Shown here piece by piece: positions 3,994 to 48,940 of a stretch of 64,000 bases of DNA. Every line of letters starts with the position of its first letter. Position 1 is the first letter of the stretch. Source of the stretch: Acetobacter aceti (GTDB lineage: Bacteria > Pseudomonadota > Alphaproteobacteria > Acetobacterales > Acetobacteraceae); assembly GCF_002005445.1 (NCBI RefSeq), contig NZ_CP014692.1:1922001-1986000 (forward strand), in the 5' to 3' direction. The notes beneath the pieces were generated by a model that searched no databases, was not told the origin of the DNA, and worked only from the letters and a program-made list of their open reading frames with translations. A program made the position numbers and the translations under genes.

Positions 3994-6900
3994 TCAGAAC
4001 CGTCTGAGGTCCAGCGTCCTCGGCTGCTCCAGCGACCGCTCCACATGCGGCTCCTTCATGGTCCCGGACGTATGACCAAACGGGAAGAAGCGGATGCGAC
4101 GGCGCGCCTCTGCCTCATTGGCGTTGACGGGGCGCGTCTCGTAACTCCGCCCGCCCGGATGCGTGACATGGTAGGTCATCCCGCCGATGCTGCGTCCGGT
4201 CCATGTGTCATAGATGTCAAAGACCAGAGGAGATTCGACTCCGATGGTCGGATGCAGCGAACTGGGCGGATTCCACGCCTTGAACCGCACGCCTCCGACA
4301 TATTCTCCCTGTCGCTGCGTACCGGTCAGCGGCACCGCGCAACCGTTGCAGGCGAGGATGTACCGCTCGTCCACCCAGCCGGAAACAAGGGCCTGCACAC
4401 GCTCGACAGAACTGTCGACATAGCGCGCCGTGCCACCGGCCACAGGCTCTTCCGCAAGGGTATTCCACGGCTCCAGAGCCGTGCGGAGCTCCAGCGTCAT
4501 CCCCAACTCGGTGATGGAGCCGATTTCCGGGAAACGGAACTGAAAATGAGGCTCGAACCACTCGGCTTCGATCGGCGCACCCAACAGACGGAGTTCGTCG
4601 ATTGCATCCCCGAAATCCTGCCTCACATAGTGCGGCAACATGAAATCATCATGCAGACGGGTGCCCCAGCGCACCAGACGGCGCTCATACGGCTTCTTCC
4701 AGAACGCCGCGACCGCTGCGCGCATCAGCAGCACCTGCGCCGCCGACATCCGGTGATGGGGCGGCATTTCGAATGCACGGTATTCCATCAGCCCCAGCCG
4801 CCCGGAACTGCTTTCCGGCGCGTAGAGCTTGTCGATGCAGAATTCCGTGCGGTGGGTGTTGCCGGTGATATCCGCGAACAGGTTGCGGAACAGCCGGTCC
4901 GTCAGCCATGGCGGCGTGAACACCTCCCGGTTGACCTGCCGGAACGCGATCTCCAGCTCATAGAGAGCATCCTGTCGGGCTTCGTCGATACGCGGATGCT
5001 GGGAACTCGGGCCAATGAACAGGCCGCTGAACAGATAGGACAGTGACGGGTGATTATGCCAGAATCCAGCCAGTGACTTGAGCAGGTCGGGCCTGCGAAG
5101 GAATGGACTATCCTCGGCGCTGGCCGCTCCCATCACCACGTGATTGCCGCCACCCGTGCCGACGTGACGTCCATCAAGCATGAATTTTTCCGCAATCAGC
5201 CCGACCTTACGGGCTTCCTCGTAAAGCTGGCTGCTGCGGGTCTCATACTCATCCCAGCTTGCTGCCGGATGCACGTTGACCTCGATCACACCCGGATCAG
5301 GCGTGATGGAAAAGGACAGCAGACGCGGATCACGGGGTGGCGCATAGCCTTCCAGCACGATCTTGCGCCCGAACTCGGCGGCTGTCGCCTCGACGGCGGC
5401 GCAGAGATCCAGCCAGTCCTCGACAGCGTAAAGCGGCGGGAAGAACACATGCAGGATACCGCCGCGGGATTCCACGGTAAGCGCCGTGCGGACGACATCA
5501 GGTTCCTCACGATTGACCTCCAGCAGATGCTCGCTGAGCGCCTTTTCAGTGCTGATCCGCCAGGGTTTGCGTACAGGGTAAGGCGGCAGCGCCGGAAGAT
5601 CGGAGAGTTGCGCGACCGGACGCTCAGGAGGCGCAACCGATCTTCTGATAAGATCAGGCACATCCGCACGATAGGTCTGCGCTGAACGCCGCGCGAAGGC
5701 CGGATGGGGCGGCAGACGGGGATGCGGTGCGAAAGGATCGACCGGAAACGACGGCTCGATATCATCGGCATCCGCCCAGGGCAGACTCTGAAGAGGAAGG
5801 CGGAAACCAATGGAAGAGTCGCCGGGCACAAGGAAGATCGTCTCACCCCGCATGAACCAGCGACCCGACTGCCAGCGTCGCACCCTATCCTGCACGGTCA
5901 CCCTGAGCGGCAGCACTGACCCGGATTCGCGCGACAACCCACGACCGAAGACACGCGCCAGACGCTCCCGTTCCATCGGGTCATTCAGCTTCGAGCCTTC
6001 CGCGAGCACGTTGGCTGGCAGGCGATGCTCTTTCCAGAGGTAGTAATGGATATCTTCGTACGCTGGCGTGACGAGTTCCGGATCAACCTGCAACCTGGCC
6101 GCCAGTGACTGGGCGAAACGTCTTGCATCATGCTCCGTGGCGTTGTCGGTATCGTCGTCTGACGCAAGCAGGCCACGATCAAGCCAGACCGGTTCCCCGT
6201 CGCGCCGCCAGTATGTGGTCAGCGCCCAGCGCGGAAGCTGCTCGCCCGGATAATGCTTGCCGAACAGGGTCATGTAGGTTGCGCCGGGCGACCAGATCGT
6301 CATGAGACGCCGTAACAGACGGTTGGCGTAAGCCCGTTTGGTCGGGCCGAGAGCCTCGATATTCCATTCAGGCGCATCCATGTCATCTGCGGCGATAAAG
6401 GTCGGCTCGCCGCCCATGGTCAGGCGGACGTCACCGTCTTCAAGCTGCCTTTCGACCGCCTCGCCCGCATCAAGAATGGCGTCCCACGTCCGCTCGTCAT
6501 ACGGTTTTGTCGTACGGGGTGTTTCGGCGACGCGCTTCACCTGCATGTCGAACCCGAATTCGGTTTCGCACAACTCGACACCGCCGGAGATCGGAGCAGC
6601 CGAACCGGGTTCAGGGGTCGCCGCGAGCGGGATATGTCCTTCACCCGTCAGCATGCCGGACGTGGCATCGAGCCCGATCCAGCCCGCGCCGGGAAGGTAG
6701 ACTTCGGCCCATGCGTGCAGATCGGTGAAGTCTCTGGCTGGTCCTTCCGGTCCCTCCAGAGGTTTTTCATCCGCAACGAGCTGGATCAGGTAACCTGACA
6801 CAAACCGGGCGGCGTAACCGAGGTTACGGAGAAGCTGAACGAGCAGCCAGGCGCTGTCACGGCAGGAGCCCTTGCCTTCTTCGAGCGTCTTTTCCGGCAG

Positions 6901-7407
6901 CCAGACGCCGGGCTCCATCCGGACGATATAGCTGATGCGTTTCTGCACGATCTGGTTCAGCGCCACCAGCATATCGACGGTGCGCTGTTTTTCCCCCGGA
7001 ATTTCAGCAAGCAGCGCCTTGAGCAGAGGGCCGGCCGGTTCCAGCTTTCTATAAGGAGCCAGTTCCTGATCCAGAACATGGTCGTAAGTAAACGGCCACT
7101 CTTCCGCATCGGGTTCAAGGAAGAAGTCGAAAGGATTGATGGTCGCCATGTCCGCGACAAGATCGACGGTGACATCGAAATGGGTGACGCGTTCGGGGAA
7201 AACCACGCGCGCCTGCCAGTTTCCCGAAGGATCCTGCATCCAGTTGATGAAATGAGGCTCCGGTTCGATGGTCAGCGCATAGGATAGGATATTTGTCCTG
7301 GCATGTGCCGCAGGTCTGAGGCGAATGACCTGAGGCCCCATCATAACAGGGCGGTCATAATGATACGTTGTCTTGTGAGTCAGCGCGACGTTCAGCGTCA
7401 TCGTCAT
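3994..7407 (-). CDS. Transglutaminase-like / DUF2126 putative amidoligase
   Basis: A 1137-residue two-part protein. The first 110 residues match the bacterial transglutaminase-like N-terminal region (TYHYDRPVMMGPQVIRLRP). A transglutaminase-like core follows, with catalytic Cys near residue 180 (GKGSCRDSAW), His near 228 (DLHAWAEVYLPG) and Asp near 244 (GLDATSG). The remaining 800 residues are DUF2126, which Pfam describes as a putative amidoligase. Full length is usual for the family. The protein probably acts in the cytoplasm because no signal peptide is seen. Two possible starts (7407 and 7401) differ by two residues. The gene diverges from a Nudix-like gene over 144 bases. The combination with ATP-grasp/alpha-E and a metallopeptidase is a known conserved neighbourhood of unproven biochemical role. 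Confidence 0.9.
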   Translation of the reverse strand: MTMTLNVALTHKTTYHYDRPVMMGPQVIRLRPAAHARTNILSYALTIEPEPHFINWMQDPSGNWQARVVFPERVTHFDVTVDLVADMATINPFDFFLEPDAEEWPFTYDHVLDQELAPYRKLEPAGPLLKALLAEIPGEKQRTVDMLVALNQIVQKRISYIVRMEPGVWLPEKTLEEGKGSCRDSAWLLVQLLRNLGYAARFVSGYLIQLVADEKPLEGPEGPARDFTDLHAWAEVYLPGAGWIGLDATSGMLTGEGHIPLAATPEPGSAAPISGGVELCETEFGFDMQVKRVAETPRTTKPYDERTWDAILDAGEAVERQLEDGDVRLTMGGEPTFIAADDMDAPEWNIEALGPTKRAYANRLLRRLMTIWSPGATYMTLFGKHYPGEQLPRWALTTYWRRDGEPVWLDRGLLASDDDTDNATEHDARRFAQSLAARLQVDPELVTPAYEDIHYYLWKEHRLPANVLAEGSKLNDPMERERLARVFGRGLSRESGSVLPLRVTVQDRVRRWQSGRWFMRGETIFLVPGDSSIGFRLPLQSLPWADADDIEPSFPVDPFAPHPRLPPHPAFARRSAQTYRADVPDLIRRSVAPPERPVAQLSDLPALPPYPVRKPWRISTEKALSEHLLEVNREEPDVVRTALTVESRGGILHVFFPPLYAVEDWLDLCAAVEATAAEFGRKIVLEGYAPPRDPRLLSFSITPDPGVIEVNVHPAASWDEYETRSSQLYEEARKVGLIAEKFMLDGRHVGTGGGNHVVMGAASAEDSPFLRRPDLLKSLAGFWHNHPSLSYLFSGLFIGPSSQHPRIDEARQDALYELEIAFRQVNREVFTPPWLTDRLFRNLFADITGNTHRTEFCIDKLYAPESSSGRLGLMEYRAFEMPPHHRMSAAQVLLMRAAVAAFWKKPYERRLVRWGTRLHDDFMLPHYVRQDFGDAIDELRLLGAPIEAEWFEPHFQFRFPEIGSITELGMTLELRTALEPWNTLAEEPVAGGTARYVDSSVERVQALVSGWVDERYILACNGCAVPLTGTQRQGEYVGGVRFKAWNPPSSLHPTIGVESPLVFDIYDTWTGRSIGGMTYHVTHPGGRSYETRPVNANEAEARRRIRFFPFGHTSGTMKEPHVERSLEQPRTLDLRRF

Positions 7408-7551
7408 CTTTCCAGATCGGTCCGTTAAGGATTAAACCTCACCTCTCGTCACTTCGACAGTCTTTTTCGTTACGATTCAAAAAAAAATTACCGATACCTC
7501 TCGAAAAAGACAGCATTCTGTCATGCACACATCCTGCCCTGAAGAGCCGAA

Positions 7552-8298
7552 ATGCCTGCCTCATCCGACAGTTCCGAAACCTCCTGCAATCTCGCTCATG
7601 ACCTGCGGGACTGGCGCTGCGAAGAGCTTCAGCCTGATGTCCGCCTGATCGTGAATGAGTCGGAACCTGAGTTGACGCCAGATGTGGAAAGGCATGTTCA
7701 GGCCATCTGGGACAAGGCCCGCGCTCTCCGTCCCAAACTTTTTAACGGGCGGATTTTCTGCATGGACAGAATCGCCCCTGACCGGATCGAAGGTCACTGG
7801 ACAGAATACCGTCGGGCGCTGGCTCAAATGGCGGAACCGACGATTTTCGGAGATACTCCGCTCCACCAGCTTGCTGTTTGCGGACTGCTTCGCTGCGCGG
7901 ACGGCGTCGTTCTGGGGCGACGCCATCCCTCGTCGCTTTATCTTGGCGGGTTCTGGCAGTCACCGCCTGCGGGAACGGTGGAAATGCGGAAAGAGGCGCA
8001 GTCTTTCTCTCTTGCCGACCAGATTCTGGCGGAAGCAGAAGAGGAGGTGGGCCTCACCCATCATGATGTCAGTGTCTCGGCTCCCCGCCTTGCTGTCACT
8101 CACTCCAGAACAGCCATTGTCGATATTGGCGTTCCCCTGACAACACCGCTTTCCTTTACTGCCGTTCAGGACAGATGGATGTCTCATGCCAACAGGGAAT
8201 ACGATCGGCTGACTGTGATTTCAGATGACCAGATTGAGGACTGGCGCCTGCGGGAAGACGTTCTGCCCACGACACGCGCCCTGCTCCACACGAAATGA
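7552..8298 (+). CDS. Nudix hydrolase-like protein with imperfect Nudix box
   Basis: A 248-residue protein. The C-terminal half has Nudix features: LLRCADGVVLGRRHPSSLY, then GGFWQSPPAGTVE, then a helix ending LAEAEEEVGL. The catalytic glutamates of the REUxEExGU box are kept, but the arginine is replaced by alanine and the loop before the helix is longer than usual. The N-terminal 90 residues (with WDKARALRPKLFNGRIF) resemble the extra domain of Nudix proteins acting on larger nucleotide-linked substrates, so I cannot name a substrate. It is transcribed alone, divergently from the transglutaminase/DUF2126 gene. The family call is good and the activity is uncertain. Confidence 0.7.
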   Translation: MPASSDSSETSCNLAHDLRDWRCEELQPDVRLIVNESEPELTPDVERHVQAIWDKARALRPKLFNGRIFCMDRIAPDRIEGHWTEYRRALAQMAEPTIFGDTPLHQLAVCGLLRCADGVVLGRRHPSSLYLGGFWQSPPAGTVEMRKEAQSFSLADQILAEAEEEVGLTHHDVSVSAPRLAVTHSRTAIVDIGVPLTTPLSFTAVQDRWMSHANREYDRLTVISDDQIEDWRLREDVLPTTRALLHTK

Positions 8299-8419
8299 GA
8301 CCTTTTGTTACAGTCATGTGTTTCATTCATGGCTGCAATACGATTTTCATTTACCGAAATGATCAGCAATGCTAGATTTGCTTCAGGATTAAGCCCCAAA
8401 CGAAACAGGAGCCCGTGCC

Positions 8420-8539
8420 ATGGTCACCCGCATTGCTCGTTTTGTCTCGAATGGCCTGATTGCCGTTCTGGTGGCGTCGAAGGACGAAGTCGGCATTTCA
8501 GTAACTGGCGCTACTCCGTCACAGCAAAAACCCTTCTAG
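8420..8539 (+). CDS. Possible small protein of 39 residues
   Basis: A short ORF beginning MVTRIARFVSNGLIAVLV. It is preceded by AGGAG about nine bases upstream, a good ribosome site. The N-terminal half is amphipathic to hydrophobic; the rest is polar. I recognise no family. It may be a real small membrane-associated protein or a chance ORF. It stands alone between the Nudix-like gene and a gene-poor region. Confidence 0.25.
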   Translation: MVTRIARFVSNGLIAVLVASKDEVGISVTGATPSQQKPF

Positions 8540-9188
8540 GTTTGCAACGCATTCGTTGGCGCAGAAGATGAATCTTGCTGCCATATGAATTGTGGACATC
8601 AATATATAAGCGCAGTGATTGTATCGTATGGCGATTCATTGCCAAACTTTGAATGTTATAAACATCCTTTTGATAAGATGGCGTTTTTATACAGATACCA
8701 GATGTAGGAAGGTTTTGATTTTCGATTGTTTTTCTTCGAAATGCAGGCAGCAATATTCCATCGTGGGGGAGCCGCCTGATTTTATTACAGCCATCTCCCC
8801 GCTCCCCCAACAATCTCTCCTGCCTTACCGGAGAGATTGATCAGAAGAATATACGAACATCTGAAGCTACTGACCTGACCCGCAGTCAGATAAAGGCTAA
8901 CAGATCTGCCTTGGCTATATCGACAAAATTACGGGGCTTTGAATTCAGTCAGCTTTTGTGCGTTCGATACGGCGGGAGGAAGCCTTTTTTTGAATAAAAA
9001 GTCTGATGTTTGGTAAGCTTTCAAGTGTATCGCATCAGCCACAAACACAAGCCCGTGGAAAAAGCATATTGATCTTCTCCATCTGCCGCTCAGACAGAAA
9101 AAACAACTCATTCACAAACTCATCCTCTACTGGCGAACCGGCGAATCACAATTGATCGTTCAGCCCAACAAACCAGCAGATCCTGATT
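8540..9188. other. Gene-poor region, no supportable feature
   Basis: About 650 bases of mixed composition with stops in all frames every few dozen codons. The 8900-9120 part has slightly more coding-like composition and may be an old decayed gene. I could not match its short translations to a transposase or any other family. Confidence 0.4.
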
Positions 9189-9488
9189 CTAATTGGCCGC
9201 ATTCTTGTTTTTTGCATTGAAAAACAAGAAAAAATACATCATGTACAATAGTTTAAAACAGTACAATAAGAACGAAAAATAATTATCAGTTTTTGTATGG
9301 TTTGACGGATGACAAAATGCACTGTACCCAAAATAATACTCTGGATCCTTATGATAAATTATATCATAAGGAAAATTAGAGTAAATTATAACGCCTAAAA
9401 ACGATGCAAATGGAATAAAGCCATATTTAAATTTTGAAAACCAAAGAATAACCAAAGAATAACCAAAGAATAACCAAAGAATAACCAA
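9189..9488 (-). pseudogene. Downstream half of a repeat-split membrane protein ORF
   Basis: This 99-codon reading frame has no ATG of its own at the 5' end: it begins at a TTG inside the 11-bp repeat array. It continues as a hydrophobic, aromatic-rich protein (KFKYGFIPFASFLGVIIY, then SFLLYCFKLLYMMYFF) that looks like two further membrane segments. It overlaps the upstream ORF (9427-9729) in another frame. One extra 11-bp repeat, or two fewer, would join the two into a single frame of about 183 codons (with one extra copy). Composition is very AT-rich, unlike the neighbours. No family is recognised. It could be the OFF state of a phase-variable gene or a decayed gene. Confidence 0.4.
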
Positions 9489-9729
9489 AGAATAACCAAA
9501 GAATAACCAAAGAATACATTAAAAATTCAAGAAAATAAAATATAAAATAAACAGACCCATCGACCATAATGTATTTATATTTTTTCAAATGAGTTATTTT
9601 TATTAAACATTCAATTTTTTTCAAATCCATTAAAACGTAAAATGAATAAAAAGAAACATAAATCAATACAAGACAGATCAAAGAATATGCAATATTTTTC
9701 GAAAAAACATTCATTTTAATATTTTCCAC
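9427..9729 (-). CDS. Hypothetical AT-rich membrane protein ending just after an 11-bp repeat array
   Basis: A 100-residue ORF starting MENIKMNVFSKNIAYSLICL. It has one strong N-terminal membrane segment, a Lys-rich loop (HLKKYKYIMVDGS), a second hydrophobic segment, then repeat-encoded residues of the pattern SLVILWLFFGY. It stops four residues after the repeat array (VFKI). The region is far more AT-rich than surrounding genes, which suggests horizontal acquisition. No family is recognised, and expression is unproven. An internal ATG (codon 6) is an alternative start. Confidence 0.4.
   Translation of the reverse strand: MENIKMNVFSKNIAYSLICLVLIYVSFYSFYVLMDLKKIECLIKITHLKKYKYIMVDGSVYFIFYFLEFLMYSLVILWLFFGYSLVILWLFFGYSLVFKI
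9439..9515. repeat. Seven perfect tandem copies of an 11-bp unit
   Basis: The unit AACCAAAGAAT occurs seven times head to tail with no mismatch (77 bases). Because 11 is not a multiple of three, each gain or loss shifts the reading frame. On the minus strand the array is open in every phase, since three copies make an 11-codon cycle without stops. On the plus strand every phase meets TAA. The array sits where two minus-strand ORFs of the same character overlap out of frame. Confidence 0.95.
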
Positions 9730-10041
9730 AATATAAATGAATAATAATAGAATTATTTAACATATATTTACAAAATCCCGAAATCTAGAAATGCGATTTA
9801 GATACACGACTGACAATCAGAAGATGACTGTTGCAGCGAGTGTCAACATACCCCAAGTTTTTGGGTGAAGTCTTTCTGTGAAAGCGAGGCGCTCCATATC
9901 TGCTCTCAACAAAGACCGTCAGAATATTTCTTCAAATCCATATCTACGGATCTTTTATCAAATACCCCCAGAGACAAACAAGAAACAGGTCATCCCTCTT
10001 CTCCACTATCCGCCAGACAGCGGAGAAGAAAACGATCCAGG
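9730..10041. other. Intergenic region, AT-rich to GC-rich transition
   Basis: About 310 bases between the AT-rich island and the end of sldA. The first 60 bases are extremely AT-rich and may carry the promoter of the membrane ORF. I see no terminator with a clear U-tract for sldA and no gene. Confidence 0.4.
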
Positions 10042-12243
10042 TCAGTGCGTATCAGGCAGAGCGTAGACAACCAGTTCATCGCTGACCGGTGTCATCATGA
10101 AGTGATGCCCTCCGGCCATGATCGCAACATACTGCCTGCCCTTGTACTCATACGTCATTGGTGTGGCCTGTCCGCCACCTGGCAGAACGGCGTTCCAGAC
10201 TTCCTTGCCTGTTTTCAGGTCGAAAGCGTGGATGAGGTTGTCTGTCGTCGCTCCAACAAACACCAGTCCCCCAGCCGTAATGACCGGACCACCATTGTTA
10301 GGTGTGCCGATTGTCAGCGGCAGGTAGGTTGGAAGCCCCCACGGACCGTTGGCGCGGGCGCTGCCCAGCGGATGTTGCCACAGCACTTTCCTTGTGTGCA
10401 TGTCGATCGCCGTAATCATGCCGTACGGCGGTTTGTTGCACATCATGTTGGTAAACTTGTTCCAGAAAGGCGTCACGACGATACCATAAGGCGTATCGGC
10501 CATTGCGCCATTTCCTTCGGCTCCACCAGCCTTGGGGTTGAAATGGGGGCTGTCGATCGGCAGCAGGCCGAGTTCATCGGCCCTGGTGCGGTCAACAAGC
10601 TGATCCCGCATCGGGGTGTTGTTCCAGTTGGCGATCAGGATACCGGTTCTGGCGTCATACGCCATGCTGCCCCAGTCGCTGCCGCCATTGTAGCCCGGAT
10701 ATTCAATCCATGGCCTGTTGATCTCGGGCGCAGTAAATTCACCCTCATATTTCGACTTGCGGAACAGGATACGGCAGTAAAGCTGGTCGATCGGGGTCAT
10801 GCCCCACATGTCGCTTTCCTTGAGATCAGGAAAACCAAGACGCGGCATACCGACCGACCAGGGCTGGGTTGGAGACCGCGGATCGTTCGGCACATCAGTG
10901 GCTGTCGGAGCCGGACGTTCCTCAACCGGCAGAACCGGTTTTCCCGTGCGCCGATCCAGCACGAACGTCTGACCTCGCTTCGACGGCACGATCAGCGCAG
11001 GAACAGTGCCATCCGCCGTCGGCATGTCGATCATGGTCACCTGAGAACCCATGTCGTAATCCCAGACATCCTTGTGCACGGTCTGGAAGACCCAGCGCGG
11101 CGAGCCGGTTTTGACGTCGATGGCGACAATGGAAGAGGAAACAGCATTTTCCTCGGGAGAGCGCATGGCGCTGTAATAGTCGGCCGCAGAATTACCCGTC
11201 GGCACGTAAACCAGCCCCAGCGCATTATCACCCGTCATGGTCGCCCAGGAATTCGGTGTGCCGCGACTGTAGTGCTCACCTTCTTTCGGCTCGCCATGGT
11301 CGTTGGGGCGGTTGACGTCCCAAGCCCACAGGAACCGTCCGGTTTCCGCGTCGTAACCACGGATCACACCGGACGGCGCCCAGCGTCGCTGACCATCAAG
11401 CACTTCCTGATTGGTCACAACAGCGCCGTTCACGACCGGCACAGGGGCGGTGATGGAGACGAATCCCGGCACCGACTCTCCCATCCCTTTCATGAGATTG
11501 ACTTCGCCGTGATAACCGAAGCCTTCGCACTTCCGCCCTGTCTCCGCATCGACCTCGATCAGACGCATATCCAGCGTGCCTTCGAGAATACGGTTGTGAC
11601 AGGGCTGTCCCTCAGGAACGGTCGAGGACGTGTAATAGGTTACGCCCTTGCAGGCCGCCGTGTAGGGAATGCTCTCGTATTTGACACCAGCCTTGAAATG
11701 CCAGACTTCCTTGCCTGTCGCAGGATCAATCCGCATCATGTCGTTCATGGCGGAACACATATAGAGCCCGTCACCGACCTTGATCGGCGTGGTCTCGGCC
11801 GCCCATTTGTTGGCCTGTCCCGGACCGGGCTTGCTACCCGTGTGATAGACGAACGCCTGCCTCAGTTGCCCCACATTTTCAGGCGTGATCTGATCCAGCG
11901 GGGAATAGCGCGTGGCGTTGCTGTCGCGGCCATAAGCCGCCCAGTCGTCGTGAGCAGGATGACTGCTTTCCTGATCCACTGCCGGAGTGGCTTCGCTGGG
12001 AGGCGCTGGCGGCCCGTCCGGAATATTCGCAGCATTCACACCGCCCGCCTGAGGCGCGCTGGGTGACGGTGCGCCATACCAGCTTCCGGGATGAGGCAGA
12101 GCATCCTTGCTGGCTCCACTCCTCTCGCCCGGTGGATCTTCATTCTTGGATGGAACCTGAGCCCATGACGCCGTTACAGGCGCAAGGAGAGACGGCAGCC
12201 CACAGACGATGGTTGCCGCCAGCAGAGTGGTTTTGCGCGTCAT
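10042..12243 (-). CDS. sldA: PQQ-dependent polyol (glycerol/sorbitol/arabitol-type) dehydrogenase, large subunit
   Basis: A 733-residue quinoprotein with an N-terminal signal peptide (MTRKTTLLAATIVCG to about ASWAQ), a Pro-rich linker, then a PQQ-dependent beta-propeller. Diagnostic stretches include WAAYGRDSNATRYSPL, NKWAAETTPIKVGDGLY, GESVPGFVSITAPVPV and VLPGGGQATPMTYEYKG. These follow Gluconobacter SldA closely along the whole length. The enzyme oxidises polyols such as glycerol, sorbitol or arabitol in the periplasm and feeds electrons to ubiquinone through its membrane partner SldB. The start at 12243 overlaps the sldB stop (ATGA), so translation is coupled. The same frame is open upstream to 12696, but that part lies over sldB and is not protein-like. 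The exact substrate preference cannot be read from sequence. Confidence 0.93.
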   Translation of the reverse strand: MTRKTTLLAATIVCGLPSLLAPVTASWAQVPSKNEDPPGERSGASKDALPHPGSWYGAPSPSAPQAGGVNAANIPDGPPAPPSEATPAVDQESSHPAHDDWAAYGRDSNATRYSPLDQITPENVGQLRQAFVYHTGSKPGPGQANKWAAETTPIKVGDGLYMCSAMNDMMRIDPATGKEVWHFKAGVKYESIPYTAACKGVTYYTSSTVPEGQPCHNRILEGTLDMRLIEVDAETGRKCEGFGYHGEVNLMKGMGESVPGFVSITAPVPVVNGAVVTNQEVLDGQRRWAPSGVIRGYDAETGRFLWAWDVNRPNDHGEPKEGEHYSRGTPNSWATMTGDNALGLVYVPTGNSAADYYSAMRSPEENAVSSSIVAIDVKTGSPRWVFQTVHKDVWDYDMGSQVTMIDMPTADGTVPALIVPSKRGQTFVLDRRTGKPVLPVEERPAPTATDVPNDPRSPTQPWSVGMPRLGFPDLKESDMWGMTPIDQLYCRILFRKSKYEGEFTAPEINRPWIEYPGYNGGSDWGSMAYDARTGILIANWNNTPMRDQLVDRTRADELGLLPIDSPHFNPKAGGAEGNGAMADTPYGIVVTPFWNKFTNMMCNKPPYGMITAIDMHTRKVLWQHPLGSARANGPWGLPTYLPLTIGTPNNGGPVITAGGLVFVGATTDNLIHAFDLKTGKEVWNAVLPGGGQATPMTYEYKGRQYVAIMAGGHHFMMTPVSDELVVYALPDTH

Positions 12244-12623
12244 ACCGCACTTCCTCTGAGAGATGTCTTGCGCTGGGTACGACGCAGAACCGGAATGGTG
12301 AGCAGCACAGCAATAGCGACAAGGCTGGGTCCGAACAGGCGGGGAAGAAGTCCCCAGCCATCCATTCCGACTTCCCAGAAAGCCCAGGGCCAGGTGCAGA
12401 GCCACGCCGCAAGGTAGACAAATGCTCCGGCGACATGTCCGAACACCATCAGAACACCACCTGTGATGATCGTCGCTCCGAAAAGCACGTAATATAAGGA
12501 GCCACCCAGAGTCGCCAGTTGCGCCCCCATGATGAGCAGGGGCAATCCAAGCAGGACAAGCAGAACTGCCACAGCAAATGTGGCCCACTCCGCCGCGCTT
12601 CTGGGACGGTGAACAGTTTCCAT
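12240..12623 (-). CDS. sldB: PQQ-dependent polyol dehydrogenase, membrane subunit
   Basis: A 127-residue protein with about four to five membrane helices (TFAVAVLLVLLGLPLLIMG, FGATIITGGVLMVFGHV, FVYLAAWLCTWPWAFWEVG, VAIAVLLTIPVLRR). It matches SldB, which resembles the membrane part of single-chain glucose dehydrogenase and anchors SldA to the membrane and ubiquinone pool. The start (METVHRPRSAAEW) has GGAG seven bases upstream. It is first in the sldBA operon and overlaps sldA by four bases. The 145-base divergent region ahead of it probably holds the promoter. Confidence 0.92.
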   Translation of the reverse strand: METVHRPRSAAEWATFAVAVLLVLLGLPLLIMGAQLATLGGSLYYVLFGATIITGGVLMVFGHVAGAFVYLAAWLCTWPWAFWEVGMDGWGLLPRLFGPSLVAIAVLLTIPVLRRTQRKTSLRGSAV

Positions 12624-12653
12624 GAAAAAACTCCGGCTGCGTTAACTCGCTGC

Positions 12654-12670
12654 ACCGGCATAACGCCGGT
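12654..12670. promoter_or_regulatory. Inverted repeat in the sldB upstream region
   Basis: ACCGGC and GCCGGT flank five bases, 31-47 bases upstream of the sldB start, in the divergent region with the secreted-protein gene at 12769. It could be an operator or part of a leader hairpin. A single occurrence cannot tell which. Confidence 0.3.
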
Positions 12671-12768
12671 CGGGATGAAGTGTTTCCATCTGGCAAAACT
12701 CCCTGCCGTGATTTACCGACGAACCAGATCGGGTGGTAAATCCTGATGACACTCTTTCGGAGAATGAA

Positions 12769-13284
12769 ATGCGGCGAATAAGCGTTGCTGCAGGACTACT
12801 GTTCTGCTTTTCGGCCCATGCGCAGGAAGCCATCACCACACCTGAGAGAATGGACGGGCCATGGGTGGCCTTGCATCATTCTTCCGATGGCGGCGAGCAT
12901 GTCGATGCCTGTATCCTCAAGGCCAGTGGACTGGCGCTTCAGTTCCAGGCGACACAAAAGGCTGCCTCCATTCAGGTCGCTGACGAAAGCGCCTCAAGCG
13001 GACAGTCCCTGCCTGTAACCTTGAAAGCCGGCAGCTTCTCAAGAACATTCCAGATGACATCGACAGCGTCAGAGAGCCTGTCAGCCCGCATCAAAGCTGA
13101 AGCCATGCGAACCATTCTGGACGCTTTCAGAAAAGCGCCGTCCGTGATCGTTCAGATCGGCTCGACCGATGGCGAGCCGATCCCTCTGGAAGGAAACACG
13201 CGGACTCTCGACGCCTTTCTTTCCTGCATGAAAACACATGCGTTCGACGGGCTGGAAAAAGGGGGCAGCAAAGTCCGGCATTAA
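12769..13284 (+). CDS. Secreted hypothetical protein
   Basis: A 171-residue protein with a cleavable signal peptide (MRRISVAAGLLFCFSAHAQ). The mature part is mainly beta-like, with Cys residues in DACILKASG and AFLSCMKTH that might pair in the periplasm. The late segment IPLEGNTRTLDAFLSCM recalls the invasion-associated-locus-B or similar small periplasmic families, but the match is not strong enough to name. The ATG at 12769 is chosen over 12733 because it has GGAG at the right spacing and starts the signal peptide. It diverges from sldBA. Confidence 0.6.
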   Translation: MRRISVAAGLLFCFSAHAQEAITTPERMDGPWVALHHSSDGGEHVDACILKASGLALQFQATQKAASIQVADESASSGQSLPVTLKAGSFSRTFQMTSTASESLSARIKAEAMRTILDAFRKAPSVIVQIGSTDGEPIPLEGNTRTLDAFLSCMKTHAFDGLEKGGSKVRH

Positions 13285-13357
13285 CGGACTCGCAGGTACC
13301 TACTTCCCGCACTCCCTTCTGGAAACGGACTGCAACGCCTTGAAGCGTCAGATAGCG

Positions 13358-13561
13358 TCAGATACCTATCCAGATGGCGGCCAGCACGAAAATGGCTCCC
13401 AACGTGACGAGAACCATCGTTCCGGCGGCATTGCCTGGCATGACAGCGGGAAGTTCAGCCACAAATCTTGCCGCGGCCAGCAGCATCAACGCGCCAACGA
13501 TAAACACCACTATCCTGACAATGGACGTGGAACTGATGGGAAAACGTCTGATCGGCCGCAT
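13358..13561 (-). CDS. Small two-helix membrane protein
   Basis: A 67-residue protein with two hydrophobic segments (IVRIVVFIVGALMLLAAARF and TMVLVTLGAIFVLAAIWIGI) joined by a short loop. The ATG at 13561 has GGAG seven bases upstream; the longer frame to 13612 lacks such a site. The function is unknown. It is convergent with the gene at 12769 and divergent from murJ. An ORF on the opposite strand has no such features. Confidence 0.5.
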   Translation of the reverse strand: MRPIRRFPISSTSIVRIVVFIVGALMLLAAARFVAELPAVMPGNAAGTMVLVTLGAIFVLAAIWIGI

Positions 13562-13771
13562 GGTGACTCCGGGTCCGCTCCTGTCCGGAAACTGGTGAGG
13601 AAGCAGTCCCATGCTCTATCAGCTCCCGGAGACAGGACAACCCTCGACTTCCGCTCTCTCTCATGCAGAAAACAGCAGGCGAGTGCCATGACGCTCATTC
13701 CGCACATATTTTTCTGCGCAAGCCCCAGAAGCTGTCTTCCCGATAACGGCAGGACACTCCTATAAGCATTC

Positions 13772-15334
13772 ATGCTCAAAGGGTTCCTCACTGTTGGCGG
13801 CTGGACCATGCTCAGCCGCATCCTCGGCCTTGTCCGCGATCAGCTTCTCGCCGCTTTCATGGGCGCCGGACCGATGCAGGACGCCTATCAGGTCGCGTTC
13901 CGTCTTCCCAACATGTTCCGGCGTCTGTTCGGAGAGGGTGCGTTCAACGCCGCCTTTGTGCCGCTCTTTTCAGCCGAACTGACAACGGAAGGGGATGACA
14001 CGGCCCGCACGATGGCGCGGCAGGTGTTTGGCGTTCTCCTGACATGGCTGGTGATCCTGTGCGTTCTGGGCGAGATTTTCATGCCCGCCGTTCTGCGCGT
14101 GATCGCTCCAGGCTTCGCCGAAAACGGGGAGCAGTACGAGCTTGCCGTTTCACTCAGCCGCATTACCTTCCCCTATCTTGTGCTGATCTGCGCGGCCGCA
14201 CTCGTGTCCGGCGTGCTGAATGGACTGCACCGCTTCAGCATGGCCGCAGCCGCCTATCTCTCGTTCAATGTCGTCGGGATCGCCGCCGTCCTTTTTGCAA
14301 CCCCGTTCTTTCCGGACGTCGCCCACACGGCGGCATGGGGCGTGACGGCATCCGGTTTCGTGCAGCTCGGCCTGCTCATGTACGCGGCCCGGAAAGCCGG
14401 TTTTGATCTCACCCCACTGCCCCCCCGCATCACGCCCAAGATCCGCCAGCTTGGACGACGGATGCTGCCTGGACTGATCGGCAGCGGCGTCACGCAGATC
14501 AACCTGACCATAGACACCATCATCGCGACCCTGCTTCCGGCCGGCAGCGTCTCGCTGATGTATTTTGCCGATCGTCTGAACCAGTTGCCTCTTGGCGTGC
14601 TCGGGGCCGCCGCCGGAACGACGCTCCTGCCGGTCCTGACCAGACATCTGGCTTCAGACGACATCGACTCAGCCCATGCCGCACAGAACCGGGCCATGGA
14701 TTACGTCCTGATGCTCACCCTGCCCTCCATGGCCGGACTGCTGGTTCTCGGCACGCCCATCATGCAGGTTCTGTTCGCGCATGGCTCTTTCAGCCTGCTG
14801 GACGCAGCCCTTTCCGCCCAGTCACTGCGGGCCTATGCGCTCGGCCTTCCTGCCTTCGTTCTGGCGAAGGTCCTGGCTCCGGCCTTCTTCGCGCGCGGTG
14901 ACACGTCCACACCTGTCAAAATCGGTTTCTTTACCCTGATGATCAACCTGATCCTCAACCTGCTGCTGATGAAACCTCTGGCGCATGTCGGGCCTCCTCT
15001 CGCCAGCAGTCTCGCGGCAATCCTGAATGTCAGCATTCTTGGAGCTCTTCTTATCCGGCGTGATGCTCTTCGTCCGGAGCCAGCCATGCTCCGACGGATT
15101 GCGCTGATGGGCCTGGCGGCCTCTGTCATGGCGTTGGCCTTGCTCGGGCTGAACAGCCTGCTCATCCTGCCTGCGTCACACGTGACATTCTGGCTGGCGA
15201 TCCTGCTGTCCTGTGAAGTCCCAATGGGCGGGCTGCTCTATCTGCTGTCTCTCCATCTGTTCGGCGTTCTGGATCTGGCGAATGCGCTTGATGGCCTGAA
15301 ACGCCGCCTGAATCGGAAACGTGGCAGGATCTGA
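13772..15334 (+). CDS. murJ: Lipid II flippase MurJ
   Basis: A 520-residue polytopic membrane protein of the MviN/MurJ family. The conserved start LSRILGLVRDQLLAAFMG is present, followed by AFRLPNMFRRLFGEGAFNAAFVPLF and the helical pattern of 14 expected segments. The later YFADRLNQLPLGVLG and APAFFARGDTSTPVKIG stretches are also characteristic. It flips lipid II across the inner membrane for peptidoglycan synthesis. Length is normal. It appears monocistronic; the next gene downstream is on the other strand. Confidence 0.95.
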   Translation: MLKGFLTVGGWTMLSRILGLVRDQLLAAFMGAGPMQDAYQVAFRLPNMFRRLFGEGAFNAAFVPLFSAELTTEGDDTARTMARQVFGVLLTWLVILCVLGEIFMPAVLRVIAPGFAENGEQYELAVSLSRITFPYLVLICAAALVSGVLNGLHRFSMAAAAYLSFNVVGIAAVLFATPFFPDVAHTAAWGVTASGFVQLGLLMYAARKAGFDLTPLPPRITPKIRQLGRRMLPGLIGSGVTQINLTIDTIIATLLPAGSVSLMYFADRLNQLPLGVLGAAAGTTLLPVLTRHLASDDIDSAHAAQNRAMDYVLMLTLPSMAGLLVLGTPIMQVLFAHGSFSLLDAALSAQSLRAYALGLPAFVLAKVLAPAFFARGDTSTPVKIGFFTLMINLILNLLLMKPLAHVGPPLASSLAAILNVSILGALLIRRDALRPEPAMLRRIALMGLAASVMALALLGLNSLLILPASHVTFWLAILLSCEVPMGGLLYLLSLHLFGVLDLANALDGLKRRLNRKRGRI

Positions 15335-37110: not shown

Positions 37111-38115
37111 TCATCCCATCCACAAGATATGTGAAAGGCATGGGGCACCCGTCGCCAGCATCACCAGCCGGTCAAACCCCAGCGCAATACCTGATGTTTG
37201 CGGCAGATAAGGCAAAGCCGCCAGTAGATTTTCATCCATGTTCCAATGCGGACGCCCTGGATAAAGCTCTGCCCGTCTCCGCCTGTCACTCTCGAACCGT
37301 TCTTTCTGTTCTGCGGAGTCAGACAGCTCCTCGAAAGCATTCGCCAGTTCGACTCCCCCGATATAAAGCTCGAATCGGAGCGCAACACGCGGATCTTTCG
37401 GACAACGACGCGCCAGAGCGGCCTGACTGGCAGGCCAATGCGTGAGAAAGGTCGGCCTGTCCCGGCCTATGACGGGTTCCACCCGCTCGAGAAGCAGTCG
37501 AAAGAAAAGATCCTCCCACTCTTCGCCCGCTCTCAGGGTGACACCAGCCTGTGACGCCAGTGCGCGCGCGTCATCGGCGGTGGCCAGAACATCCGCCCCG
37601 ACATGGCGCCTGAAAGCCTCCGCAACCGTCAGCCTCTCAAACGGTTCCGCAATCGGGATCACGCATCCATCGCGCCGGATGCTGGGAGGAAGCATCGTGC
37701 GGACAAATGCTTCCGTCTCGTCCATCAGGTCATCAAGACCGGCTCCCGGTCGATACCATTCCAGCATGGTGAATTCCGGCGCGTGCAGGGCGCTTCCTTC
37801 GCCATTGCGCCAGACGCGCGCGAGCTGGAAGATTTTCTCTCCCGTCGCGGCCACAATGCGTTTCATCGCAAATTCGGGACTTGTGTGCAGAAACAGCGGC
37901 TCCCGCTCACCCGTCGGAGTTTCGCGCTCCGTGGCGAAAACATGCAGATGCACTTCCTCGCCGGGTGTCGGGACCGCATACGGCGTTTCGACTTCCAGAT
38001 AGTCCCGGCCGTCAAAAAACGCTCGTAATCCCTGCATCATCAGGGCTCGACGACGCAGCAGAGGCAGACGTTCCGCAATGTGCCCGACATCTCCTCCTCT
38101 TCTTTCAGTCGTCAT
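37111..38115 (-). CDS. epmA: Elongation factor P lysyltransferase EpmA (PoxA/GenX)
   Basis: A 334-residue class II lysyl-tRNA-synthetase-like protein lacking the anticodon-binding domain. Motif 2-like FEMKR-type segment appears as HTSPEFAMKRIVA and QLARVWRNGEG; motif 3 is GIALGFDRLVML. It attaches (R)-beta-lysine to a conserved Lys of elongation factor P, relieving ribosome stalling at Pro runs. The start at 38115 (MTTERRGGD) has AAGGA five bases upstream. It diverges from epmB, which makes the beta-lysine, so the pair encodes two steps of one pathway. EF-P and EpmC are not in the window. Confidence 0.9.
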   Translation of the reverse strand: MTTERRGGDVGHIAERLPLLRRRALMMQGLRAFFDGRDYLEVETPYAVPTPGEEVHLHVFATERETPTGEREPLFLHTSPEFAMKRIVAATGEKIFQLARVWRNGEGSALHAPEFTMLEWYRPGAGLDDLMDETEAFVRTMLPPSIRRDGCVIPIAEPFERLTVAEAFRRHVGADVLATADDARALASQAGVTLRAGEEWEDLFFRLLLERVEPVIGRDRPTFLTHWPASQAALARRCPKDPRVALRFELYIGGVELANAFEELSDSAEQKERFESDRRRRAELYPGRPHWNMDENLLAALPYLPQTSGIALGFDRLVMLATGAPCLSHILWMG

Positions 38116-38209
38116 CGCTGTCCTTATATATTTTTCAACCGGCATTCTGTGACGCCGGGCAACTCTGCTGTCCACCATACCAGGCAAGCGTGCAACCGAC
38201 ACGCCCCAC

Positions 38210-38247
38210 GCTCTACGTTGCCCAAACAGCTCTACGTTGCCCAAACA
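38210..38247. repeat. 19-bp perfect tandem duplication in the epmA-epmB promoter region
   Basis: GCTCTACGTTGCCCAAACA occurs twice head to tail (38210-38228 and 38229-38247), 25 bases before the epmB start. It might double an operator, or be a recent slippage event. Confidence 0.85.
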
Positions 38248-38271
38248 CATGCAAACCCCTAGAAGCGCGCC

Positions 38272-39351
38272 ATGTCCCCGTCAGGCTCCCCCATTATAGG
38301 CATCAGGGCGAATTCCGCCCAAGCCCGCACGCTCCGCTCACCGGAAGAGCTGCTCGGGGCCGGTCTTGTCGAGAGGGAACAGCTACCGGCCATCACCCAT
38401 GTGGCGGAGCGTTACGCCACAGCGATCCCTTCCGCCTTCATGGAACTGATCGAAACGCCCGACGACCCGATCGGCCTGCAGGTCATACCCTCACCCGATG
38501 AACTACAGACCGCCCCTCATGAACTCGCCGATCCGATCGGCGACGACGCCCTGTCGCCAGTCCCCGGCATCGTCCATCGCTACGCCGACCGCGCCCTGCT
38601 CAAACCGCTTCTGATCTGCCCGCTCTATTGCCGTTTCTGTTTCCGGCGCGAGCATGTCGGCCCCGACGGCGGCCTCCTCGACGAAGAAGCCTTGACCGTC
38701 GCGTTCAGGTGGCTGCGGGAAAATACCGCCATTCGTGAAGTGATTCTGACCGGTGGCGATCCGCTGATGCTCTCTCCACGACGACTGGAGCATATCATGC
38801 GGGAACTGGCTTCCATCCCCCATGTCACGACCCTGCGAATTCACAGCCGTGTACCACTGGCCGCCCCCGAAAAAATTTCGGACGCGCTTCTGGACGCCAT
38901 GGATACCGACAAGGCGGTCTGGCTGGTCGTTCACGCCAATCATGCGCGGGAGTTCAGCCCTGCCGGACGTGAAGCCCTGAAAAAAATTCAGCGCAGAGGC
39001 ATTCCCGTTCTGGGGCAATCAGTTCTTCTGCGAGGCGTCAACGACAGTGAGGACGCTCTGGAAGGACTGTTTCGGGCCATGGTCGAAAGCAGGATGAAGC
39101 CCTACTATCTGCATCAGCTCGATCCCGCACCCGGCACCGCGCGCTTTCATGTTCCCATTGCGGAAGGACGCCAGCTTCTCGCGGGATTGCGTGGTCGTGT
39201 GACCGGGCTGGCCTGGCCGACCTACGTGCTGGATATTCCGGGAGGATATGGGAAGGTTCCGCTGGGACCGGACTATCTTGAGCCGTCCCTGAGCGCGGTC
39301 AGCGATCCGAACGGACAGAAACACACCATTCGCACGCCGGACAGTCTGTAA
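38272..39351 (+). CDS. epmB: EF-P beta-lysylation protein EpmB (lysine 2,3-aminomutase family)
   Basis: A 359-residue radical-SAM enzyme. The 4Fe-4S cluster motif CxxxCxxC is CPLYCRFC near residues 116-123. Further signatures are ILTGGDPLMLSPRRL, LRIHSRVPL and PYYLHQLDPAPGTARF. It converts (S)-lysine to (R)-beta-lysine, which EpmA then attaches to EF-P. The short length (lysine 2,3-aminomutases of catabolism exceed 400 residues) and linkage to epmA favour EpmB. It follows a 19-bp tandem duplication in the shared upstream region. Confidence 0.93.
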   Translation: MSPSGSPIIGIRANSAQARTLRSPEELLGAGLVEREQLPAITHVAERYATAIPSAFMELIETPDDPIGLQVIPSPDELQTAPHELADPIGDDALSPVPGIVHRYADRALLKPLLICPLYCRFCFRREHVGPDGGLLDEEALTVAFRWLRENTAIREVILTGGDPLMLSPRRLEHIMRELASIPHVTTLRIHSRVPLAAPEKISDALLDAMDTDKAVWLVVHANHAREFSPAGREALKKIQRRGIPVLGQSVLLRGVNDSEDALEGLFRAMVESRMKPYYLHQLDPAPGTARFHVPIAEGRQLLAGLRGRVTGLAWPTYVLDIPGGYGKVPLGPDYLEPSLSAVSDPNGQKHTIRTPDSL

Positions 39352-46919: not shown

Positions 46920-46946
46920 TCCGGAAACAGCGTCTGAACGACTGGA

Positions 46947-48632
<1,686 letters not shown>

Positions 48633-48646
48633 TCAGAAGCCGGTGA

Positions 48647-48940
48647 TCAGCCGGCGATCACGCCCATGATGTCGCTTTCCTTCATGATCAGCAGCTCTTC
48701 ACCACCGATCTTGACTTCGGTGCCGGACCACTTGCCGAACAGCACGCGATCACCAGCCTTCACATCGAGCGCCACGATCTGGCCCTGCTCGTTGCGTGCG
48801 CCTGGACCAACGGACACAACCTCGCCTTCCATCGGCTTTTCCTTGGCCGTGTCAGGGATGATGATGCCACCAACTGTCTTTTCTTCGCCTGTAAGACGGC
48901 GAACCACCACACGATCGTGCAGGGGACGGAATTTCGTCAT
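48647..48940 (-). CDS. groES: Co-chaperonin GroES
   Basis: A 97-residue protein: [20 protein letters not shown], the mobile-loop region [13 protein letters not shown] and the [20 protein letters not shown] segment are typical. It is the lid of the GroEL chamber. The start at 48940 begins the conserved domain; the frame to 48955 adds five unlikely residues. It is first in the operon, 89 bases after the CIRCE element. Length is normal. Confidence 0.97.

Follow-up and report, generated by a model that had tools for sequence, protein, structure and literature searches.

A perfect 11-bp tandem array between out-of-frame halves of a putative membrane-protein gene in Acetobacter aceti, a candidate repeat-mediated switch

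Two hydrophobic minus-strand open reading frames in the chromosome of Acetobacter aceti meet out of frame at seven perfect copies of an 11-bp repeat, in an AT-rich insertion, and the locus may act as a repeat-mediated on/off switch of a membrane-protein gene. This reading, which supposes both changes in copy number and expression of the gene, is given a probability of roughly 0.45. All coordinates, unless a locus is named, refer to the window, that is, the whole stretch of 64,000 nucleotides that was analysed. The features on which the reading depends are the following:

9439-9516, minus strand: 11-bp tandem array of seven perfect copies (AACCAAAGAAT on the plus strand, ATTCTTTGGTT on the minus strand)
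9427-9714, minus strand: upstream half-ORF, stop included, of 95 aa from the ATG at 9714 or 100 aa from the GTG at 9729
9189-9488, minus strand: downstream half-ORF, 99 aa from a TTG start, consisting of array-encoded residues, about 83 further residues and a TAG at 9191-9189

The array is the top-scoring of seven tandem repeats reported by TRF in the window (period 11, 7.1 copies, 100% matches, score 156). The earlier note had placed the seven perfect copies exactly where both hydrophobic ORFs overlap out of frame, and both TRF and the ORF list, in which 9427-9729 and 9189-9488 share the array but are read in different frames, agree with it. Since 11 is not divisible by 3, a full codon cycle takes three copies, which yield one hydrophobic peptide of 11 residues, the same in all three minus-strand phases (YSLVILWLFFG, rotated). 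Inspection likewise bore out the claim that the array is open in every minus-strand phase and closed on the plus strand, where each unit carries one TAA, and the predicted product of the join is correct, one added unit giving 541 + 11 = 552 bases, or 184 codons, for 183 residues plus stop. The upstream half-ORF contains, in order, one transmembrane stretch, the array-encoded hydrophobic residues and FKI-stop just beyond the array. The downstream ORF ends with its stop inside the right-hand target repeat of a neighbouring insertion sequence (IS).

In 20 sampled stretches of the same genome (400 kb of 3.73 Mb) no TRF array of at least 3.5 copies was found, the top-scoring repeat there being a 3-copy 23-bp repeat. 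The exact two-unit word matched this genome at the array alone (6 overlapping hits) and was absent from the viral_contigs collection and, beyond this genome, from the genome_contigs collection. With up to 3 mismatches allowed, the three-unit word occurred in one of 49 genus genomes, namely this one; the genome collections cover one genome per species.

When the array is left out, both of its flanks are open on one common strand, a configuration that arose in 3 of 20,000 dinucleotide shuffles; taken singly on the minus strand, the left flank was open in 378 and the right flank in 101 of the 20,000. The locus has the make-up of a contingency gene: the array is perfect, its unit is not divisible by 3 and it lies inside an ORF, the flanks are stop-free, one phase joins the halves, and an intact homologue spans the join, with significant similarity in the downstream half only. 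The two ORFs are very probably halves of one membrane-protein gene whose frame is broken in the present assembly, as far as can be judged from sequence, and the encoded protein would most probably be small, with 3-4 transmembrane helices.

The intact homologue was found in a sister species, designated G013:

L059:1234-1737, plus strand: diverged homologue, a single uninterrupted ORF of 167 aa with no perfect array

The absence of any homologue was part of what the earlier note would have counted against its proposal of a phase-variable membrane protein; the search returned this relative, in which one intact ORF spans the join. Searched without the array against 397 family genomes, the downstream half gave a sole hit at E ≤0.01 outside its own genome, one among 396. 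The E-value of 5.8e-4 holds for one genome and amounts to about 0.2 over all 397, so the homology rests mainly on the pairwise comparison, which was made after the hit. In this comparison, the downstream half is collinear with residues 68-162 of the homologue over some 95 residues, the array-encoded ones included. Apart from short gaps, the local BLOSUM62 alignment is continuous between LFFGYSLVILWFS/LFFIYSVFIINFS and the C-terminal LFF..K, and it scores 96, against a mean of 42.8 in hydropathy-preserving shuffles (z 7.0, 0 of 2000 as high); identity is 29 of 88 ungapped positions, or 20 of 67 without the array part. Direct phmmer comparison of the aligned stretch gave 19.2-20.2 bits in both directions, and the array residues left the bias-corrected score unraised (20.1 bits with them and 20.2 without). 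Composition-adjusted BLASTP aligned the last 42-43 residues alone, with E 2e-5 when the array part was included and 8e-6 when it was not, and with the protein reversed, as a control, no hit in 200 genomes was better than E 0.093. For the upstream half and the array, the likeness occurs in the expected order (D...CL..I...KYI...FL.Y...LFF.YS) and is non-significant (z 1.3-1.9), the best stretch of the upstream half scoring at most 2.6 bits against the homologue in phmmer.

Diverged as it is, the intact homologue is well supported. Four helices are indicated by its hydropathy, and the hydrophobic stretches in the two halves are compatible with this arrangement, the third helix being sub-threshold here. 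About two thirds of the positions differ and the codons are open in both genes, implying that both genes were long under selection, so that the frame break is recent or reversible. A weak 11-bp pattern of 2.5 copies (L059:1437-1463, TRF score 40) lies near the site of the homologue that aligns with the array and may be due to chance in AT-rich DNA.

Beyond G013, no further homologue was accepted among the 397 family and 385 class genomes. Hits of the A2 profile in two of the 397 family genomes (G259, G205) and two of the 385 class genomes (G541, G682) were noise-like (E 0.007-0.016), with stops in three of the four, the fourth covering 60 residues within a frame of 520 aa. A match to the upstream half in G365 (E 0.0055, 40% identity) contains an internal TGA and was set aside. 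When the G013 protein was searched against 49 genus genomes, five more hits were obtained (E 0.02-0.74), all of them frames of 50-62% GC with short likeness only, and the array locus was not listed at E ≤1; the genus search had probably missed that locus at its first look. Neither the half-ORFs nor the homologue had a significant match in Pfam, PHROGs or PADLOC, nor had the half-ORFs in NCBIfam; the upstream half drew two PHROGs families of unknown function at E 0.05-0.06, and a single match of the homologue among PDB sequences (E 0.023) was taken as chance. No relative was detected in genome_contigs with the upstream half, in viral_contigs with either half, the homologue or the A2 alignment, in the plasmid collection with the downstream half or the homologue, or in the phage collection with the upstream half or the homologue. 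Rfam and tRNA scans of the window were empty.

The locus lies in a distinct stretch of DNA that adjoins the remnant of an insertion sequence:

about 9193-9858, no strand: AT-rich island with a GC content of 0.256 (9193-9860), missing at the same site in three sister species
8540-9188, no strand: decayed IS5-family element that has lost 197 bp internally and carries six small indels, adjoining the island

Both parts of the suggestion that a stretch far more AT-rich than its surroundings represents acquired DNA were supported. The GC content of 0.256 compares with 0.469-0.662 in the other 1-kb bins of the window (surroundings about 58%), and the island is an insertion, the same convergent gene pair being about 173-192 bp apart in the sister species G028, G018 and G013. 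In two of these three, the alignment of the spacer resumes at 9859 (scores 54 and 36, significance not computed) and in the third only at 9984, so the right edge of the island is approximate. The region sits between the convergent ends of a short plus-strand ORF ending at 8539 and of a minus-strand gene ending at 10042, which resembles PQQ-dependent membrane dehydrogenases (TIGR03074, 774.9 bits, under the cut-off of 832.65). Altogether, 12 loci from relatives and one further locus of the same genome were compared; 4 of the 12 are collinear on both sides, and in the fourth of these relatives, G034, the same gap is taken up by about 3.1 kb with other genes. Among them are a gene with a diacylglycerol-kinase domain and another with a sulfatase domain (L039:4588-7112), so insertions may be frequent at this intergenic position. 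Two matches of 39-48 bases between island DNA and same-class genomes, recovered from 60 relatives at E 5e-4 to 7e-4, were considered chance likeness of AT-rich DNA.

The IS remnant is bordered by CTAG (8536-8539) and CTAA (9189-9192), a 4-bp target duplication with one difference. A plasmid search with 8541-10041 matched the IS alone, in 11 records (Acetobacter 6, Gluconobacter 2, Zymomonas 2, Kozakia 1); 10 are annotated as transposase or IS5 family, the remaining one is without a feature at the match, and identity to the best plasmid relatives is about 70%. With its 197-bp deletion and six small indels, the element encodes no intact transposase, and the divergence of its own branch is about 0.33-0.40 substitutions per site. 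The IS also accounts for the second match of 8700-10060 in the same genome, where a better-kept relative lies near 1,677.8 kb (L048:3858-4259 and nearby). The target repeat is no proof that the island preceded the IS, since up to 10 bp at the start of the former spacer (0-10 bp) fit either side. A second IS fragment to the right of the island, proposed from the resemblance of 9818-9837 to 8562-8581, was unsupported (best E 0.28).

Both the gene at the array and its homologue are AT-rich inserts between convergent genes, at different chromosomal sites. When the neighbourhood of the homologue was compared with its copies in five relatives, the insertion measured about 600 bp relative to G034, which has some 11 bp there, and about 660 bp relative to G018, which has none; the gap at this site is about 282 bp in the A. 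aceti genome, as compared with 795 bp, and about 1,263 bp in G028, and in G025 the left flank alone was matched. The two neighbours of the homologue are convergent, one carrying an HD-associated domain and the other having the look of a glycosyltransferase. The AT-rich single-gene insertion extends over L059:1106-1704, and the last codons of the homologue lie in DNA common to other species.

According to the proposed switch, the island would have brought in one horizontally acquired orphan gene, its product being the small membrane protein of 3-4 helices described above, and the 11-bp array would have expanded within the codons of its second hydrophobic stretch. At seven copies the frame would shift past the array and translation would end about three residues on (FKI-stop), the present genome representing the OFF (truncated) state. 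Perfect arrays of such length are expected to slip and, since this one is perfect and spans 78 bp, units would be gained or lost by slipped-strand mispairing. As one phase in three joins the halves, a change in copy number would toggle the full-length protein in some cells. The array is presumably unstable and the gene presumably expressed, and the locus would then switch, with whatever benefit this may confer.

A distinctly possible alternative is that the gene was recently killed, slippage having occurred in a foreign gene of no benefit that is now decaying; the array may then mutate and yet switch nothing useful. The sequence is equally compatible with a recent knock-out and with phase variation. 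The island is missing at the same site in three sister species, the downstream half was found in only one of the 396 other family genomes searched, a decayed IS lies next to the island and no family match suggests a role, all of which would suit a dead gene. The stop-free state of both flanks argues the other way. Under neutral decay with the composition of the island, both flanks remained open in 2442, 192 and 3 of 5000 cases at 0.02, 0.1 and 0.33 substitutions per site, respectively, and with the host composition in 3027, 480 and 31 of 5000, 0.33 being the low end of the estimate for the adjoining IS remnant. A dead gene would therefore have to be recently dead, unless the island postdates the decay of the IS. 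An island as old as the IS would argue for selection, but as the two insertions may have come in either order, no weight is placed on this point.

On another, unlikely view, the acquired AT-rich DNA is non-coding, with both ORFs open by chance and the array a neutral minisatellite. The codon-position GC of the locus (0.224/0.149/0.209 and 0.253/0.265/0.301) lacks the usual coding signature, as would be expected of such DNA; that of the homologue, whose frame has 30% GC, is likewise without it (0.299/0.281/0.305). The lack of family matches points in the same direction, as does one of two inverted repeats in the downstream half-ORF:

9346-9372: inverted repeat of 11 bp with a 5-nt loop, within the downstream half-ORF
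9202-9230: inverted repeat of 11 bp with a 7-nt loop, towards the end of the same half-ORF

The RNA fold of 9340-9385 has a z of -4.1, with no equally stable fold in 200 shuffles; the hairpin is strong on either strand and odd in a coding stretch, and like the flat codon-position GC it also counts against the switch. The fold of 9202-9230 is ordinary (z -1.5, 19 of 200 shuffles equally stable). Against chance openings stand the rarity of open flanks in shuffled sequence (3 of 20,000) and the collinear match of 95 residues to an intact ORF. Over 9000-10100, the terminator scan gave no terminator-like site, and 7 promoter-like sites compare uninformatively with 4.0 (sd 2.0) in shuffles.

An elaboration of the switch, judged improbable, is that the array acts doubly, turning the membrane protein on and off and also altering its topology. 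Every copy number would lengthen a membrane helix and one phase in three would reach the conserved C-terminal half; neighbouring ON states would be 11 residues apart, so that the helix might vary in length, or the protein even in how often it crosses the membrane. The orphan gene family would then move about as AT-rich inserts of one gene each, placed between convergent genes.

We regard as very unlikely the view that the upstream ORF (about 95 aa) is a complete gene whose hydrophobic tail length is tuned by the array, the downstream ORF being a relic: the upstream ORF does possess its own ATG and its own stop, but the intact homologue runs on through the join, and the significant similarity belongs to the downstream half. 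Ribosomal frameshifting within the array, which would produce one protein from both halves at the present copy number, would take advantage of two frames that overlap and are open through the array; however, the array RNA is unstructured (fold z +2.25), so no stimulator is seen there, and the unit has no homopolymer run above three bases, leaving this mechanism with little to recommend it. Least credible is an iteron or partition-site remnant of a plasmid serving as a protein-binding site: 11-bp direct repeats in AT-rich DNA do resemble some plasmid iteron or parC sites, yet no rep or par gene was recognised by inspection among the ORFs of 6000-14000 (some of which were family-scanned), the plasmid search matched the IS alone, the two-unit word is absent from the viral and genome collections, and the ORF that contains the array has a homologue elsewhere.

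Much work has been done on repeat-driven switches in animal-associated pathogens and, to our knowledge, little in acetic acid bacteria, whose genetic instability matters to industry. As in the contingency loci of Haemophilus, Neisseria and others, a perfect repeat with a unit that is not a multiple of three lies in an ORF, and the gene here is otherwise open and out of frame at the present copy number. Unlike those loci, whose repeat units usually measure 1-8 bp, the unit here is 11 bp, the array sits mid-gene in a transmembrane segment, the host is an acetic acid bacterium and switching is a proposal drawn from one genome.

In substrains of A. pasteurianus IFO 3283, five genes are described as containing hyper-mutable tandem repeats (Azuma et al., cited in PMC4686929); some of them are reported as variation among substrains of one strain, and another A. 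pasteurianus strain is cited as stable over nine years (PMC4686929). In Kozakia, a colony change is described as not reversible (PMC5553594). The A. pasteurianus repeats resemble the present array in lying tandemly within genes, in a bacterium that is probably related, and differ in having been seen to vary, the array here being known from one genome. Among the entries listed in a limited search of the open-licence literature, none reports an 11-bp frame-switching array in acetic acid bacteria. The locus is a credible candidate for a switch of known kind, with one newly found homologue in its support. With a confirmed switch, heterogeneity within a population could be followed by a simple marker of PCR size, and an orphan membrane protein would have its first lead to a function, while a dead gene would represent ordinary slippage in acquired DNA.

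Two further observations concern other parts of the window. A perfect two-copy 19-bp repeat (38210-38247) lies in the first codons of the minus-strand ORF 37111-38250 and also just ahead of the plus-strand ORF 38272-39351. When 40001-64000 was compared with plasmids, the best 15 of 439 records matched about 46942-48937, corresponding to GroES/GroEL where annotated.
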